Positions 12,315-51,599 of a DNA stretch of 64,000 bases are shown here, in pieces (the first letter of the stretch is position 1; each line of letters starts with the position of its first letter). The notes below the pieces were generated by a model. The model saw only the letters and a program-made list of their open reading frames with translations, made no database searches and was not told where the DNA came from. The DNA lies in NCBI RefSeq assembly GCF_018866305.1, contig NZ_CP076456.1:2914001-2978000 (forward strand). The letters run 5' to 3'. The translations under genes were made by a program, and so were the position numbers. This DNA is from Arthrobacter sunyaminii (GTDB lineage: Bacteria > Actinomycetota > Actinomycetes > Actinomycetales > Micrococcaceae).

Positions 12315-13165
12315 CGCAGCACCCGCTCTTCTTCGGGGAGCGCCCCGATTCTAAGCATGAGCCGGTAGCAGATCACGGAAATGACAATGCCGGCCGCCAG
12401 CACGGTTGCCCCGCCGGCAGTGTTGTAGGCGGCAACGGCTTCCGGACGGGCGGCAAGCAGAATCAGCACGATCCATGGGGCGGCGACGGCGAGCCGTGCA
12501 GCGTTGACTGTCCAGGACTGGCGGGCCAGAAGTTCGCTGCGGGTTCTCGCGTTGTCCCGCAGGAACTCGTTCAGGGTGCCGAGCAGACGTCCAAGGTCTG
12601 AGCCTCCCACCTCGCGGGTGAGGCGCAGTGCTTCGACGATGCGGTCTGCCACCGGATCCGCCAAGGTGGCTTTCAGCCGTGTCAGGGAGTGATCGAACTG
12701 TCCTCCGGATCGGTAATCTGCTGCAAACTCACGGAAAGGCTGCCTCAGCTCTTCCGGACCGTTCTCCCCCAGCTGGATCAATGCCTCCGGCAGGGACAAC
12801 CCGGCCCGGATGGCTGACCGCAGGTGATCCACGGCGTCCGGCCACAATTCCGCACGTGAGGTTCGCTGCTTCCGCGCCTGCCAACGGATCAGGAAGAGCG
12901 GCACACCGGCACCGAACAGGCCAAAGCAGGCGGCAATGGGTACGGCGCCTGTGCCGGCCAGCACCAGCAGCGCGACCAGCAGTCCGGCGGCGACGCTGGA
13001 CCCTACTACTGCCCGCGGAGTTACCCGCTGGATTCCTGCCTGCAGCAGTTCATCCTCCAGCCGTCTGCTCCGCGGACGCCGGGCCGACACGGGCGGAACC
13101 ACCCAGAAGGACCGCCATACCAGGAACAGTCCAAGGCCCAGCAGCAATCCCGCCGCGGCGCTCAT
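12311..13165 (-). CDS. tadB: Tad pilus inner-membrane platform protein TadB-like (T2SF domain)
   Basis: 284 residues. An N-terminal TM (AAAGLLLGLGLFLVW) and two more in AVVGSSVAAGLLVALLVLAG and FGLFGAGVPLFLI precede the T2SF core DHLRSAIRAGLSLPEALIQL; two TM segments end the protein. It is the usual partner of TadC. It overlaps tadA and tadC by 4 bases each (ATGA type), so the three genes are translationally coupled. Confidence 0.9.
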   Translation of the reverse strand: MSAAAGLLLGLGLFLVWRSFWVVPPVSARRPRSRRLEDELLQAGIQRVTPRAVVGSSVAAGLLVALLVLAGTGAVPIAACFGLFGAGVPLFLIRWQARKQRTSRAELWPDAVDHLRSAIRAGLSLPEALIQLGENGPEELRQPFREFAADYRSGGQFDHSLTRLKATLADPVADRIVEALRLTREVGGSDLGRLLGTLNEFLRDNARTRSELLARQSWTVNAARLAVAAPWIVLILLAARPEAVAAYNTAGGATVLAAGIVISVICYRLMLRIGALPEEERVLR

Positions 13166-14388
13166 GGCCGCACTTCCAGCAATTCGGCCACGTTGTAGCC
13201 GGCGCGGGCGAATTTCTCCGGTGCCGGCATGGACGCGGCCGTCACTTCCAGCCGCCCGTCGGTCCGCTGGAAAATGGATGACGCTTCAATCACGCCGTTC
13301 TCCACCCTGTTGCCAAGCGCCATGATCTCCACTACCTGGCGCTTACCGGCAGCGTTGCGGGCACAATGGATGACCAGATCAATGCAGGATGCCACGGTGG
13401 GCACCACGAAGGCACTGGAAATGTTGGCTCCGGCCAACAACGGCAGCGTACAGATTTTCGTGATCGCGTCATGGGCGCTGTTCGCATGGACACTGCACAT
13501 TCCGGGCAGACCCGAGTTCAGCGCGATCAGCATGTCCAGGCTTTCGGCTTCCCGAACCTCACCAACAATGAGGCGGTCCGGGCGCATGCGCAGAGCTTCT
13601 TTGACGAGCCTGCGCAGTGGGATTTCTCCGACACCTTCCAGGTTGGACTGCCGGCACTGCAGCCCCACCACGTCCCGCAGCGGCAGCTGCAGCTCGAAGA
13701 TTTCCTCAACCGTGACGACACGTTCCCGTGGGCCAATGGAAGCGCCCAGGCAGTTCAGCATGGTGGTCTTCCCGGCCTGCGTTGCTCCGGACACCAGGAC
13801 ATTCAGGCCGCTGGCAACTGCGGCACCCAGGAACCTTGCCGCCTGCGGTGTCAGGGTCCCCAGTTCCACCAAATGTTCCAGCCGGCTGGCGCGGGCAATG
13901 AATTTGCGGATGTTGACCGCCCAGTGACGCCGGGTAATGTCCGGGATCACCACGTGCAGGCGTGAGCCGTCCGGCAATGATGCATCAACAAACGGGGAGG
14001 AAAGATCCAGTCTGCGGCCTGAACTCTTGAGCATTCGTTCCACGAGGTCCCGCACCTGGTCCGCGGACAGGACCAGAGAGGTCAGCTCCGACCGCCCGTC
14101 ACGTGCCGCATAGATCTCAGTGGGTGAATTGATCCAGACTTCCTCCACCGTGGGGTCATCCAGCAACGGCTGAAGGGCTCCGAACCCGGCTACGGCGTCA
14201 AAGACGCGGCGGCGGGCGGGCTCCAATGCGCCCAGCGGTGGCAGCGAACCGAGGAGGGAACGCTCGTCGTAATCGGTAACCGCATCCTCGACCAGGCGCC
14301 GTACCTCCGCGAGCTGGCTGGCGGGGTCAAGGCCGCGCAGACGGATCAGTTCCCGGACCTCATCCTCCACAATTGCAACGGCGTCCAC
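13162..14388 (-). CDS. tadA: Tad pilus secretion ATPase TadA/CpaF
   Basis: 408-residue hexameric ATPase that powers pilin extrusion. Walker A GATQAGKT (201-208), an Asp-box-like VVTVEEIFELQL, Walker B RLIVGEVR (273-280) and a His-box SVHANSAHDA are intact. The N-terminal domain includes DPTVEEVWINSPTEIY, characteristic of CpaF. The GTG start has a GGGGGAAG ribosome site. It is first in a seven-gene operon. A TTATCCACA box sits about 130 bases upstream. The usual CpaB and CpaE genes are missing here and are found near 41-43 kb instead. Confidence 0.94.
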   Translation of the reverse strand: MDAVAIVEDEVRELIRLRGLDPASQLAEVRRLVEDAVTDYDERSLLGSLPPLGALEPARRRVFDAVAGFGALQPLLDDPTVEEVWINSPTEIYAARDGRSELTSLVLSADQVRDLVERMLKSSGRRLDLSSPFVDASLPDGSRLHVVIPDITRRHWAVNIRKFIARASRLEHLVELGTLTPQAARFLGAAVASGLNVLVSGATQAGKTTMLNCLGASIGPRERVVTVEEIFELQLPLRDVVGLQCRQSNLEGVGEIPLRRLVKEALRMRPDRLIVGEVREAESLDMLIALNSGLPGMCSVHANSAHDAITKICTLPLLAGANISSAFVVPTVASCIDLVIHCARNAAGKRQVVEIMALGNRVENGVIEASSIFQRTDGRLEVTAASMPAPEKFARAGYNVAELLEVRP

Positions 14389-14519
14389 TAGCTTCCCCCG
14401 GACTAAGCACGGAAAGGACGGATGTTGCCATCCTTGCCGTGAGACTGGTGCAGCCTGGTTGCGGCCACGGGGGTCAGATTAGGAGACTCACTGTCCAGAT
14501 ACGAGAGTGTTTTCATAAC

Positions 14520-14528
14520 TGTGGATAA
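14520..14528 (-). promoter_or_regulatory. TTATCCACA box upstream of the tadA operon
   Basis: Read on the minus strand (direction of tadA) the sequence is TTATCCACA within TGCTTATCCACAGTTATGAA. The same box occurs upstream of cpaB (42910-42918), and TTATCCACT upstream of comF (51591-51599), in the same orientation. It is also identical to a consensus DnaA box, so role is inferred. Confidence 0.4.
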
Positions 14529-40784: not shown

Positions 40785-42152
40785 TCACTTTGCCGCGGCC
40801 GCCGCCTTCCTGGCACGCCGCCGAGTGGAGACCCGCACGTTGGCGAGCGCTGCTATCGCGTGTCGCAGCGGCGATGAGGGCGCCGTTTCCAGCAGCGCCG
40901 ATCCCGCCAGCAGCGCCGCATCAACCGTGGCGAACTCTGCCGGGAGGAAAGCCGTCACCGGGATTCCCGGACCGAAGCGTTCCCAGGCATCACGCAGCTG
41001 CCGCTCGGGGGAACGCCCCACGGAGGAAGCACGGACCTTGTTCAGCACGACCTTCGGGGCCGACCCGGGGACAGCGGATTCCAATTCGGTGAGGGCCCGG
41101 ACGAGCCGGGGCACCCCCACTGAATCCGCTGAACCGACGGCAAAGACGGTGTCAGCAAGTTCAAGGGCCCGCAGTGTGGCGCCGTTCCGCCGCGGGGCCA
41201 TGGTGTCGAAGCTCAGCTCTTCATCGGCCTCCAAGCTGAACCCGCAGTCGATGACGATCAGATCCATTGCCTTTCGTGCCTGTTCCACCACCAGGCCCAG
41301 CGCCGTGGGGCGCAGCTCGATCCAGCGGTCAGACCGGGTGATGCCCGTAAGCACCAGCAGCCGCTCCCCCTTCATCGACACGCTGAGGGTGCTGCGGAGC
41401 AGGGAATCAACATCCAGAAGTCCCTGATCCGCTAAACGGCAGGCCTGGGCCACCCCTGCGGATTCATCAAGAAGGCCAAGGTGTGCGGCAACAGAGGAAC
41501 CGTAGGTATCCGCATCAATCAGGAGCACGGTTTTGCCTGCCGCCGCGGCCTCCGCTGCCAAGTTGACGGCAAGCATGGTCCTGCCCGGTGCTCCCGCCGG
41601 ACCCCAAACTGCAATCACCGAACCGTCCACGCGGCCGCCGCCGGGCACGCTTTCCTGTCCGTCTTCCCAGTTGTTCCCTGCCGCGCGGTATCCCGGTGCC
41701 CGTTCCGCCGTCCCCGTACTGCGGCTCCCCCCGCCGTCGGCTTCCACCGCCCAGGTGTCCAAGGCTGCCGCCGGATCGGCCGGAACGGAAGAACCGCCGC
41801 CGGCTTTCATCCGGTCCACTGCATCCGCGACGAGGTCAGAGAGCATCTCGGGGGCCGAGCCCCTTGGTGCATGGACGATGTTCAGTGCGTCAAGGCGGCG
41901 CAGGGCACCCTCCTCATCTGCCAGCACCAGCAGTGCCACACCCGATGCCGCCAGCCGCTCTGCCAATGCCGCAGTGACTTCTCCGGCGTCGTCGGACACG
42001 ATGGCTGCCCGCGCTATCCCGCTCTGGCACGCTGCAATCAGTTCGGGCAGCTCGGCGCAGCGGCGCACCACGGTGACCGGCCCGTGCAGCCGCTCCAGGT
42101 CCTGCACAAGGTTCCCGACGCCGCTGCCCACCGTCACGACGGGAATATTCAT
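40785..42152 (-). CDS. cpaE: CpaE/TadZ-like pilus localisation ATPase
   Basis: 455 residues. An N-terminal receiver-like domain (about 1-115), a flexible Gly/Ser-rich linker (115-175) and a C-terminal MinD/ParA-type domain. The P-loop is deviant: GPAGAPGRT (184-192), with Arg where the Walker Lys belongs, and no signature Lys near its start; the second block LLIDADTYGS (Asp213) and LIVIDCGF are preserved. TadZ proteins are known to have atypical Walker A motifs and to position Tad pili at poles or foci. It overlaps the cpaB-like gene by 4 bases. It stands 26 kb from the remainder of the Tad genes. Confidence 0.85.
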   Translation of the reverse strand: MNIPVVTVGSGVGNLVQDLERLHGPVTVVRRCAELPELIAACQSGIARAAIVSDDAGEVTAALAERLAASGVALLVLADEEGALRRLDALNIVHAPRGSAPEMLSDLVADAVDRMKAGGGSSVPADPAAALDTWAVEADGGGSRSTGTAERAPGYRAAGNNWEDGQESVPGGGRVDGSVIAVWGPAGAPGRTMLAVNLAAEAAAAGKTVLLIDADTYGSSVAAHLGLLDESAGVAQACRLADQGLLDVDSLLRSTLSVSMKGERLLVLTGITRSDRWIELRPTALGLVVEQARKAMDLIVIDCGFSLEADEELSFDTMAPRRNGATLRALELADTVFAVGSADSVGVPRLVRALTELESAVPGSAPKVVLNKVRASSVGRSPERQLRDAWERFGPGIPVTAFLPAEFATVDAALLAGSALLETAPSSPLRHAIAALANVRVSTRRRARKAAAAAK

Positions 42153-42796
42153 GACCCGGCAGCCGGGTTGAGGACCACCGAAATCTTGGCGCCATTGGAC
42201 TGGGCGCTGAGCAGCGACGGAAGATCGTCATCCTCTACGAGAACCAGTATCTGCATGGCGCGGTTGGCTCCCAGTACGGATTCGTCAACGCTGAGCTCGG
42301 AGATTTCTGCTGCCGTCAGGATCTGCTTGGGCTCTTTGAATCCGTTTCGTTCATCCGGCATGGAAACCCACACATCGACCCGCGACCCCGCCTCGGTTCC
42401 CGCCGGCAACGGATCATCAATGCGAAGGCCCACCGGCTTCCGGTCCAGCTCATCCGCTTTGCCCAGGTCCGCCCGGGAAAGCAGTTCGCCCTTCCTCAGC
42501 AGGGACGAAGCCACCATGTTTTCAGGAATGCCGTCTGCCGCCGGCAGATAGGCCCCTGAAACCTCGCCGAGCCGAACCGGTACCACCGCGAAGTCCTCTG
42601 CGGTGACCCGTGTTCCCAGCGGGATCGCCTCCTCTACGGCGAACACATCGGTGGTTTCGTCCGCTGCACCGACAAGCCCAACGACTCCTGCCGTTGAGGC
42701 AAGCACCAGCAGTATTCCCAGCAGAAGCCGGGGATCCTTCCACGACGGTTTTTTCAGACGCGGCGCGGACGCCTGCATGCTTGTTGCGAGACTCAT
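42149..42796 (-). CDS. cpaB: SAF-domain protein, CpaB/RcpC-like
   Basis: 215 residues. One N-terminal TM helix (about 22-42, LLLGILLVLASTAGVVGLVG) then a SAF domain with VEEAIPLGTRVTAEDFAVVP and KGELLSRADLG. CpaB proteins assist Tad pilus assembly and in some cases bind peptidoglycan or glycans. The ATG at 42794-42796 was chosen because GGGGGAAG precedes it; an earlier in-frame ATG at 42847 has no such site. It is the first gene of a two-gene operon with cpaE and has a TTATCCACA box about 115 bases upstream. Confidence 0.85.
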   Translation of the reverse strand: MSLATSMQASAPRLKKPSWKDPRLLLGILLVLASTAGVVGLVGAADETTDVFAVEEAIPLGTRVTAEDFAVVPVRLGEVSGAYLPAADGIPENMVASSLLRKGELLSRADLGKADELDRKPVGLRIDDPLPAGTEAGSRVDVWVSMPDERNGFKEPKQILTAAEISELSVDESVLGANRAMQILVLVEDDDLPSLLSAQSNGAKISVVLNPAAGS

Positions 42797-42894
42797 TCTT
42801 CCCCCTGGTGGCACCGGAATCCGGGCTGCAGAGCTCCGGATTGGCAATCGGTGCCATTGTTAACCACAATTCCGTGGAAGAACACGGTGTTTCT

Positions 42895-42918
42895 GCGAAA
42901 AGTTCAAAGTGTGGATAA
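42895..42918 (-). promoter_or_regulatory. TTATCCACA-N9-TTTCGC composite box upstream of cpaB
   Basis: Read on the minus strand, TTATCCACA (42910-42918), nine bases, then TTTCGC (42895-42900). The same two halves at the same spacing lie upstream of comF (51576-51599), with the last base of the first half T instead of A. Confidence 0.45.
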
Positions 42919-43004
42919 CCTGCCCATCCCGGCGTTGGAGATGGGAGACTAATGGCAGCGTTCTGGAAAAGGAACACGCGCCCGAGGAATACAGAGGTAG
43001 AAAC

Positions 43005-43238
43005 GTGGATGAAAAGAGGTTCCTGACACTGGCTGATGTCGGTGAGGTGCTGAACATATCCTCGTCACAGACGTACGCCCTGGTGCGTTCCGGAGAGTTG
43101 CCGGCCATCCAGATCGGAGGACGGGGCCAGTGGCGGGTGGAATCACGGGTGCTCGAAGAGTTCATTGCCGACGCGTACCGCCGTTCGGCTTCCGGTCTTC
43201 GCGAGGAAGCGTCCCAGGGCCAGACTGCCAAGCAGTAG
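43005..43238 (+). CDS. Small winged-helix/excisionase-like DNA-binding protein
   Basis: 77 residues. The helix-turn-helix lies in FLTLADVGEVLNISSSQTYA followed by LVRSGELPAIQIGG and a wing residue group GRGQWRV, the layout of MerR/BldC/excisionase small regulators. Its tail is hydrophilic. The GTG at 43005 has AGAGG about 8 bases upstream; the frame is open to 42909 but the earlier part lacks any domain. It is divergent from the cpaB-cpaE operon, so it is a candidate regulator of that operon. Confidence 0.82.
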   Translation: MDEKRFLTLADVGEVLNISSSQTYALVRSGELPAIQIGGRGQWRVESRVLEEFIADAYRRSASGLREEASQGQTAKQ

Positions 43239-50585: not shown

Positions 50586-51539
50586 TCACCTCCGGACATT
50601 CCGATTACCTAAGACGCCGGAAACTGGATTAGGATCCTCCCTTGTGTTAGATGCGTCATATGAGGGTGGTGTGGTTGCAGCCAGTACAACAGCGCCCTCA
50701 ACCCGCGCTCCAGCAGCCCTTAGCGCACGAGTGGCTTCCGCTATGGTTGCCCCGGTAGTCAGGACGTCATCAACTACCAGGCATCGTGTTCCGGCCAGCG
50801 ACCCCTTCTCCCCGGCCGTCATAGTCCCGTAAACATTTCTGCGGCGCCCGCTGCGTCCCAGTGTCTTTTGGCTTCGCACCCCGCCGGCAGCCGCAGCCGG
50901 GGCGGAGGGACGCACAAGGTCCCGTGGACGCCGTCCTCTGAATCTGACCAAAGGTTCCAGGGCTGTTCCGGCCGGCAGGAGACTCTTGGATTGGAGAGTG
51001 GAGAGGAGCATGCCAAGCGGGTTGTAGCCCCGCCGGCGGCGCGCACGCCCCGTTGCGGGGACCGGGACCAGGACGATCTCGGTGTTATCACCGCCCGTCA
51101 GGCCACCGACGTCGGCCGCGGCCTGATGCAGTGCACCGGCGAGCATCGGACGCAGCACATCCGCGAGATCAGTATGGCCGTGATTCTTATAGGCAAGGAG
51201 CACTCTCGCCAGGCTGCCGGCATAGCGGCCGGCAGCGGTGACGGGCAGCGGCGCCGGCTCATCGGCCTCCAACCCCTGGGCGCTGTCCGCCGAGTTTTCC
51301 CTGCCGGGCAGCAGTTCCGCTGCGTCCTGTGCATAGTAGGGGCGCGTTCCGCTGCGCCGGACCACGCGGCGGCAGCCGGGGCAGAGTGAACAATCCGCGG
51401 TTTCGCAGACCACGCAGGACGTTGGCAGGAGCACCGCCAGCAGGTCTGCCCACGCGGCTCCAACCGAGGCTGCCCATGGTTGAAGCCGCCACCGGTCAGC
51501 ACGGCGGGCCAGGTCCGAAAAGCAGGAAAACACGCTCAT
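50586..51539 (-). CDS. comF: ComF family phosphoribosyltransferase-like protein
   Basis: 317 residues from the ATG at 51537-51539. The N-terminus has four clustered cysteines (CVVCETADCSLCPGC), a zinc finger typical of ComF. The C-terminal PRTase fold has RRRRGYNPLGMLLS and the PRPP loop CLVVDDVLTTGATIAEA. ComF is needed for natural DNA uptake in many bacteria, and related GntX-like proteins serve other roles. It lies 91 bases after lpqB's stop. A TTATCCACT-N9-TTTCGC box occupies that gap 36 bases before the start, the same composite found upstream of cpaB. Confidence 0.93.
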   Translation of the reverse strand: MSVFSCFSDLARRADRWRLQPWAASVGAAWADLLAVLLPTSCVVCETADCSLCPGCRRVVRRSGTRPYYAQDAAELLPGRENSADSAQGLEADEPAPLPVTAAGRYAGSLARVLLAYKNHGHTDLADVLRPMLAGALHQAAADVGGLTGGDNTEIVLVPVPATGRARRRRGYNPLGMLLSTLQSKSLLPAGTALEPLVRFRGRRPRDLVRPSAPAAAAGGVRSQKTLGRSGRRRNVYGTMTAGEKGSLAGTRCLVVDDVLTTGATIAEATRALRAAGARVEGAVVLAATTPPSYDASNTREDPNPVSGVLGNRNVRR

Positions 51540-51575: not shown

Positions 51576-51599
51576 GCGAAACGGCCCGGCAGTGGATAA
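51576..51599 (-). promoter_or_regulatory. TTATCCACT-N9-TTTCGC box upstream of comF
   Basis: On the minus strand TTATCCACT (51591-51599), nine bases, then TTTCGC (51576-51581). It is in the 91-base gap between lpqB and comF. Base for base it shares GCTTATCCAC with the tadA upstream box. Confidence 0.45.

Follow-up and report, generated by a model that had tools for sequence, protein, structure and literature searches.

The 64,000-nucleotide stretch of the Arthrobacter sunyaminii genome analyzed here, referred to below as the window, carries two operons for Tad (Flp) pili as well as comF, and one short box lies upstream of all three. The question raised by this locus is whether pilus and competence genes are read from a common regulatory site, as the original prediction had it, and, if so, which genes belong to it and which protein binds there.

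The box at the two Tad operons

The window contains exactly three copies of the 8-mer TTATCCAC, all on the minus strand (14521-14528, 42911-42918, and 51592-51599), and every copy is located upstream of tadA, cpaB, or comF and points at that gene; places and orientation are as had been predicted. The chance figure of about two 8-mer matches that accompanied the prediction was too high, with 0.47 copies expected in the window by dinucleotide shuffling and three or more reached in 2 of 100 shuffles. At the Tad operons the copies are part of the 9-mer TTATCCACA. The conserved part of the finding is the box of the cpaB operon at 42910-42918 (minus strand), with the predicted -10 hexamer AACAAT at 42856-42861 (minus strand), 57 bases from the box start. 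The gene cpaB itself (42149-42796, minus strand; Flp pilus assembly, SAF domain) scored above the cut-off for PF08666 and below it for TIGR03177, its start was picked by the SD-like AGGGGG, and an HTH_17 (excisionase-type) gene diverges from it at 43005-43238 on the plus strand (PF12728, E 2.7e-11, in the 62-residue version). The box of the other Tad operon lies at 14520-14528 (minus strand), followed 47 bases from its start by the predicted -10 hexamer TAATCT (14476-14481, minus strand) and by the first gene of that operon, the tadA/cpaF ATPase (13162-14388, minus strand; PF00437 above the cut-off, TIGR03819 below). All -10 hexamers given here and below are predictions from sequence.

Matches to cpaB and to tadA were each found in 29/29 Arthrobacter genomes, namely our own and 28 others. 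TTATCCACA is present upstream of cpaB in all 29, and in the aligned genus promoters the box columns are invariant and most of the flanking columns variable. At tadA, 21 of the 29 genomes carry the exact TTATCCACA, four carry TTTTCCACA, one carries TTATCCACC, and three have none, which gives 26/29 with the variants included. Because the Tad boxes are kept across the genomes of the genus while the cpaB flanks vary, they look selected, and the expectation that the boxes should be conserved in close relatives was borne out at both Tad sites but not at comF. As a specificity control, the 3 kb before a second TadA-like ATPase, which need not be the first gene of its operon, contained TTNTCCACA in 0 of 12 genus genomes.

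For the wider family, which Rothia, Kocuria, and Micrococcus among its members indicate to be Micrococcaceae, cpaB was matched in 143 of 149 genomes, and 94 upstreams from 30 other genera, picked to cover genera, were read in addition to the 29 of the genus; tadA was matched in 59 of 60, and after the partial match in G032 was dropped, 58 upstreams from 29 other genera and the 29 of the genus made a set of 87. Of the 94 cpaB upstreams, 54 (22/30 genera) carry the pattern TT[AGT]TCCACA on the coding strand, as do 45 of the 58 tadA upstreams (25/29 genera); the other strand carries it in 2/94 and 11/58, respectively. Control stretches farther upstream were empty on the coding strand (0/94 and 0/58) and had one match at cpaB and none at tadA on the opposite strand, and the reversed motif was found at most once in the family upstream stretches. 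The signal at the level of the family, across approximately 30 genera, is TTNTCCACA reading towards the gene. Since the genomes are related, these counts are not independent, and genus weights and the control stretches serve as the guard. The cpaB box is absent from six of the 30 other genera (g6, g12, g19, g22, g23, and g31) even with a looser pattern.

Complementary scans covered 48 of 80 named loci (19 from the family and 29 from other actinobacteria, with short loci and other phyla left out), the gene start being inferred where the match begins late in the protein (e.g., L430-L439, L440). Within the family, 17 of the 19 named loci have the box. Among the 29 tadA upstreams from outside the family, eight have both the box and a -10 hexamer at 47-49 (Humibacillus, Serinicoccus, Ornithinimicrobium, Brachybacterium, and four Nocardioides), six have the box without this spacing, Bifidobacterium breve among them, and 15 lack the box in the tad orientation, two of these carrying it on the other strand.

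The distance from the box start to the -10 hexamer is also constrained. At tadA, TANNNT stands at +47 to +49 in 23.0 of 26 genus-weights, with a shuffle maximum of 4.9; when the box was picked by its core TCCACA alone, TANNNT was found at 47-49 in 72 of the 87 upstreams and 27 of 30 genera, and in no more than four upstreams for any other 3-base bin tested between 20 and 61 after the core. Promoters of cpaB fall into two spacing classes one helical turn apart, with TANNNT at +46 to +48 in 8.5 of 23 genus-weights (shuffle maximum 5.2) and NA[CG]AAT at +57 to +59 in 5.9 of 23 (shuffle maximum 2.0). With wider bins of 46-49 or 56-60, 73 of 123 cpaB upstreams fit and 50 fit neither; the clade with A. 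citreus, for instance, has its -10-like hexamer at +50, outside both classes. A candidate -35 element at tadA, TTG placed +24/25 relative to the box (10.8 of 25 genus-weights), is not backed by a control, since shuffles were compared from +25 onwards and no bin there rose above them.

Further elements were seen around the tadA box. In the promoters of G000, G019, G002, G003, G008, and G025, a palindrome-like GGGTA...TACCC stretch, imperfect in some, adjoins the box upstream and TACYCTCG lies below it; another factor may act at these stretches.

The comEA-comEC promoter and a candidate shared operator

The gene comEA was taken with TIGR00426 in 109 of 110 family genomes; G140 gave no match at the cut used, and L335 is a paralogue. 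A first look at its upstream region was negative, with exact TT[AGT]TCCACA in 3 of 29 and none in our own genus, and tests of the spacing to the -10 hexamer, which constituted a second look, reversed this result. Judged from its sequence, comEA looks leaderless: in 73 of 109 an in-frame ATG lies 11-13 bases from the first base of TANNNT, four altered hexamers meet this rule in 1/109 each, and a looser leaderless rule accommodates 101 of 109, the remaining eight staying outside the anchored count. This -10 anchor was chosen blind to the box, and a few of the 101 starts look wrong (e.g., G042, G115, and the g6 genomes).

The core TCCACA lies 43-46 bases before the anchor in 47 of the 101 anchored genomes (19/30 genera), as compared with 42 cores across the other 106 offsets, 32 of which fall at 71-75; a second core approximately 28 bases upstream of the first is often present. 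Hexamers of the same composition at offsets 43-46 were either shifted frames of the box (23, 21, and 8) or single occurrences. Exact TTNTCCACA was found upstream of comEA on the coding strand in 21 of the 109 family genomes and on the other strand in one, and the comF and comEA loci together (421,194 strand-bases) contain eight TTNTCCACA, of which the three with a -10 hexamer at 46-50 are all upstream of comEA. Because the core recurs at the shared spacing and TTNTCCACA occurs there with a -10 hexamer, the operator is common to comEA-comEC as well at the level of the family. Within our own genus, exact TTNTCCACA is found before comEA in 0/9 genomes, and the copy of our own genome is the degenerate TTCTGCACA at +47 before TAGTTT. 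The comEA boxes have TT at positions 1-2 in 15 of 47 cases vs. 66 of 72 for the tadA boxes, and the factor or its affinity may differ between the two promoters.

Taken together, these results make it very probable that operons for DNA uptake, namely both Tad operons and, in many genera, comEA-comEC, share a directional, activator-type operator. The comparisons of promoter sequences above demonstrate that the site is conserved, oriented, held at a fixed distance from a -10-like hexamer, and shared between operons. At both Tad operons TTNTCCACA would span approximately -60 to -52 relative to the predicted start of transcription, and a looser version, reduced to the core TCCACA and often present in two copies about 28 bases apart, would occupy the equivalent place before the leaderless-type comEA-comEC promoter in many genera. 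The bound protein would reach RNA polymerase along a single face of the helix and would activate the pilus and DNA-channel genes at the same time; the start sites, activation instead of repression, and co-regulation are what we infer. An activator that contacts RNA polymerase, at what is called a class I site, would need its box centred near -56, pointing mainly one way, and in phase with the helix. The Tad and comEA promoters display a fixed distance, a helical phase to the -10 hexamer, and one orientation, with the other-strand boxes of 11 of the 58 tadA upstreams and the single cpaB clade at +50 as exceptions. The pilus/competence regulon originally proposed is in this respect upheld for both Tad operons and extended, for the family, to comEA-comEC, and loses comF.

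Candidate proteins

DnaA is the likeliest single candidate for the bound protein, albeit a tentative one, with the HTH_17 protein encoded beside cpaB ranked behind it and some other factor taking up what is left. We suggest, still more guardedly, that DnaA might act as an activator of DNA uptake in Actinomycetes through one box near -56 at each Tad operon and through weak boxes in tandem at comEA-comEC. Pilus assembly and competence would then follow the level or the nucleotide state of DnaA, and the HTH_17 protein and CpaB would be feedback inputs.

Actinobacterial DnaA boxes vary at the first three positions. Within 1500 bases downstream of dnaA, 30 genomes contained 43 TTATCCACA, 22 TTGTCCACA, 7 TTTTCCACA, and 4 TTCTCCACA, and core-selected tadA boxes begin with TTA in 43 cases, TTG in 14, TTT in 6, and TTC in 3; by the base at position 3 the two sets are not distinguishable (p = 0.73). 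That these are DnaA boxes, as already raised with the original prediction, is a plausible reading, with the same variants in tadA boxes and dnaA-adjacent boxes and with the identical 9-mer TTATCCACA, which one source gives as the DnaA consensus (PMC8203912). The same source describes DnaA as both an activator and a repressor (PMC8203912). The boxes at Tad and comEA differ from the DnaA box as otherwise known in being single or tandem, locked to the promoter, and mostly in one orientation. The comEA boxes keep mainly the core, which counts against DnaA, and by eye there is no visible co-variation by genus at position 3 between the cpaB box and the dnaA-adjacent boxes, which does not help it. 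Among the literature matches listed, from a coverage that excludes most subscription journals, no title or abstract connects DnaA with Tad or com genes or describes this operator.

The operator would be the same if the bound protein were the HTH_17 (excisionase-type) protein, a possible reading that we place below DnaA. In 101 of 123 genomes a relative is encoded divergently from cpaB at a distance of at most 900 bases, and 77 of these genomes also have the box; 24 have the gene without the box, 12 the box alone, and 10 neither. Small winged-helix proteins of this kind are able to occupy short asymmetric sites either alone or in head-to-tail arrangement, which would fit the single tad boxes and the tandem comEA boxes. 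The HTH_17 gene of the window is the counterpart of Mlut_14660 of Micrococcus luteus, and the stretch 42149-43238 resembles M. luteus cluster 13 (Mlut_14650/14660) in its combination of cpaB and a divergent HTH_17 gene, a locus that affects comEA/EC expression in that organism (PMC8467076). In support of the HTH_17 protein, an EMS screen in M. luteus gave comEA/EC up-mutants almost all of which were changed in a 550 bp stretch comprising the HTH_17 gene and cpaB; in the same work, deletion of cpaB raised comEA/EC activity in rich medium, and the HTH gene could not be deleted (PMC8467076). Three of nine single changes, when re-inserted, were enough to reproduce the parental activity, namely one in cpaB, R64W of the HTH protein (13-M93), and one in the Shine-Dalgarno region of its gene (13-M1090); the other six, among which 13-M89 lies close to where the HTH begins, were without significant effect on their own, which weighs against the HTH_17 protein (PMC8467076). 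The model put forward by Torasso Kasem et al. (2021) for cluster 13 is that the two divergent transcripts interfere with each other, and they called for binding to be tested; an operator is not named in the part of the article at hand (PMC8467076).

In the M. luteus-like genome G042, the intergenic length equals the published one to within one base, which places the box at approximately 1607030-1607038 by the published coordinates, and neither of the M. luteus intergenic changes falls in the box by these inferred coordinates. The predicted start sites at the G042 locus are 99 bases apart, and the published wording of 97 bp can be read in several ways (PMC8467076). Relative to the promoter of the HTH gene the box is not in register. 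Additional points against the HTH_17 protein are the 12 of 123 genomes that have the box and no such gene within 900 bases, where the gene may lie elsewhere, the lack of a solved relative findable by sequence, and the coincidence of a second protein having the preferences of DnaA.

An improbable further reading is that the sites are DnaA boxes that serve replication control, through titration of DnaA, and not transcription of pilus genes. Apart from the match to the DnaA consensus, it is favored by the distribution in our own genome, where 27 TTATCCACA sites, vs. 2 for the reversed pattern, include a cluster close to dnaA and two more, one at 16 kb and one at -44 kb. Titration, however, does not need one main orientation and one -10 spacing at two or three unrelated operons across many genera. 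Of the 27 sites, three have TANNNT at 46-50: the one at tadA, the one before a DUF6507-like gene, and one within the 16 kb cluster.

Several sites outside the window were also observed. Two clusters of DnaA boxes, at C1:16031-16376 and C1:3870127-3870204, are present by coordinates in G007, G019, and G028 as well (three to four boxes, and a facing pair), and are possibly DnaA titration or origin-like sites. Single TTATCCACA copies before a YgjP-like metallopeptidase gene (C1:3000784) and before lipB (C1:1599006) are each kept in 4/4 genomes, the former with a -10-like hexamer at +36 and the latter with no -10 at the tad spacing. The box at C1:3136884, with TAGGTT at +48, has the exact tad layout before the gene for the 120-residue DUF6507-like protein (just below the cut-off); by coordinates, three relatives have no exact copy there.

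comF, chance resemblance, and significance

The third box of the window, TTATCCACT at 51591-51599 (minus strand), precedes comF (50586-51539, minus strand; PF00156 above the cut-off, TIGR00201 below), a gene matched in 29/29 genus genomes. It had been noted that the cpaB and comF copies share TTTCGC nine bases further on, and this is exact at both places: TTATCCACW-N9-TTTCGC is found in the window at 42895-42918 and 51576-51599, 8.7 kb apart, and TTATCCAC-N10-TTTCGC is exact at these two sites alone in the whole 3.91 Mb genome. Two exact composites so close together in one genome would favor a regulon defined by the composite and inclusive of comF; against this, none of the 28 other genus genomes contains an exact composite, which is disrupted even in the near relative G024, TTATCCAC upstream of comF occurs in one of 29 genus genomes, our own, and the core with a -10 hexamer at the shared spacing precedes comF in none of the 29. 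A regulon so defined is very unlikely. Being kept in so few genomes, the comF box and TTTCGC both look like chance, and membership of comF was rejected together with the composite; we judge TTATCCACT a chance match, comF to lie outside the regulon, and TTTCGC at 42895-42900 (minus strand) to lie outside the element, the last also in view of the aligned promoters. In the cpaB promoters of several genera, the box is extended to TTATCCACAGTTTGA-N4-5-TTTG, whose TTTG repeats are spaced by roughly one turn of the helix, and the TTTCGC at cpaB may be a degenerate second TTTG repeat.

That chance and shared promoter ancestry could explain the matches at the Tad and comEA promoters is scarcely credible, for while orthologous promoters do share descent and the genomes are not independent, the counts are genus-weighted, the flanks have diverged, the coding-strand controls are empty, and the same layout recurs at three operons.

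In Firmicutes, late-competence regulons use ComK boxes and sigma-X sites (PMC8467076). These regulons likewise rely on one short site for pilus and DNA-channel operons, with a motif that differs from TTNTCCACA. For M. luteus, one study reports that no homologues of the ComK cascade were found (PMC4322843), and a 2026 paper states that the upstream competence signals and the cascade are still to be identified (PMC12849477). An operator common to the pilus and DNA-channel operons offers a direct handle on how competence is turned on in actinobacteria, as well as a bait with which to look for the regulator. Should DnaA prove to be this regulator, the uptake of genes would be coupled to the control of replication. 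The box may help to spot Tad pili of the DNA-uptake type in other actinobacteria.
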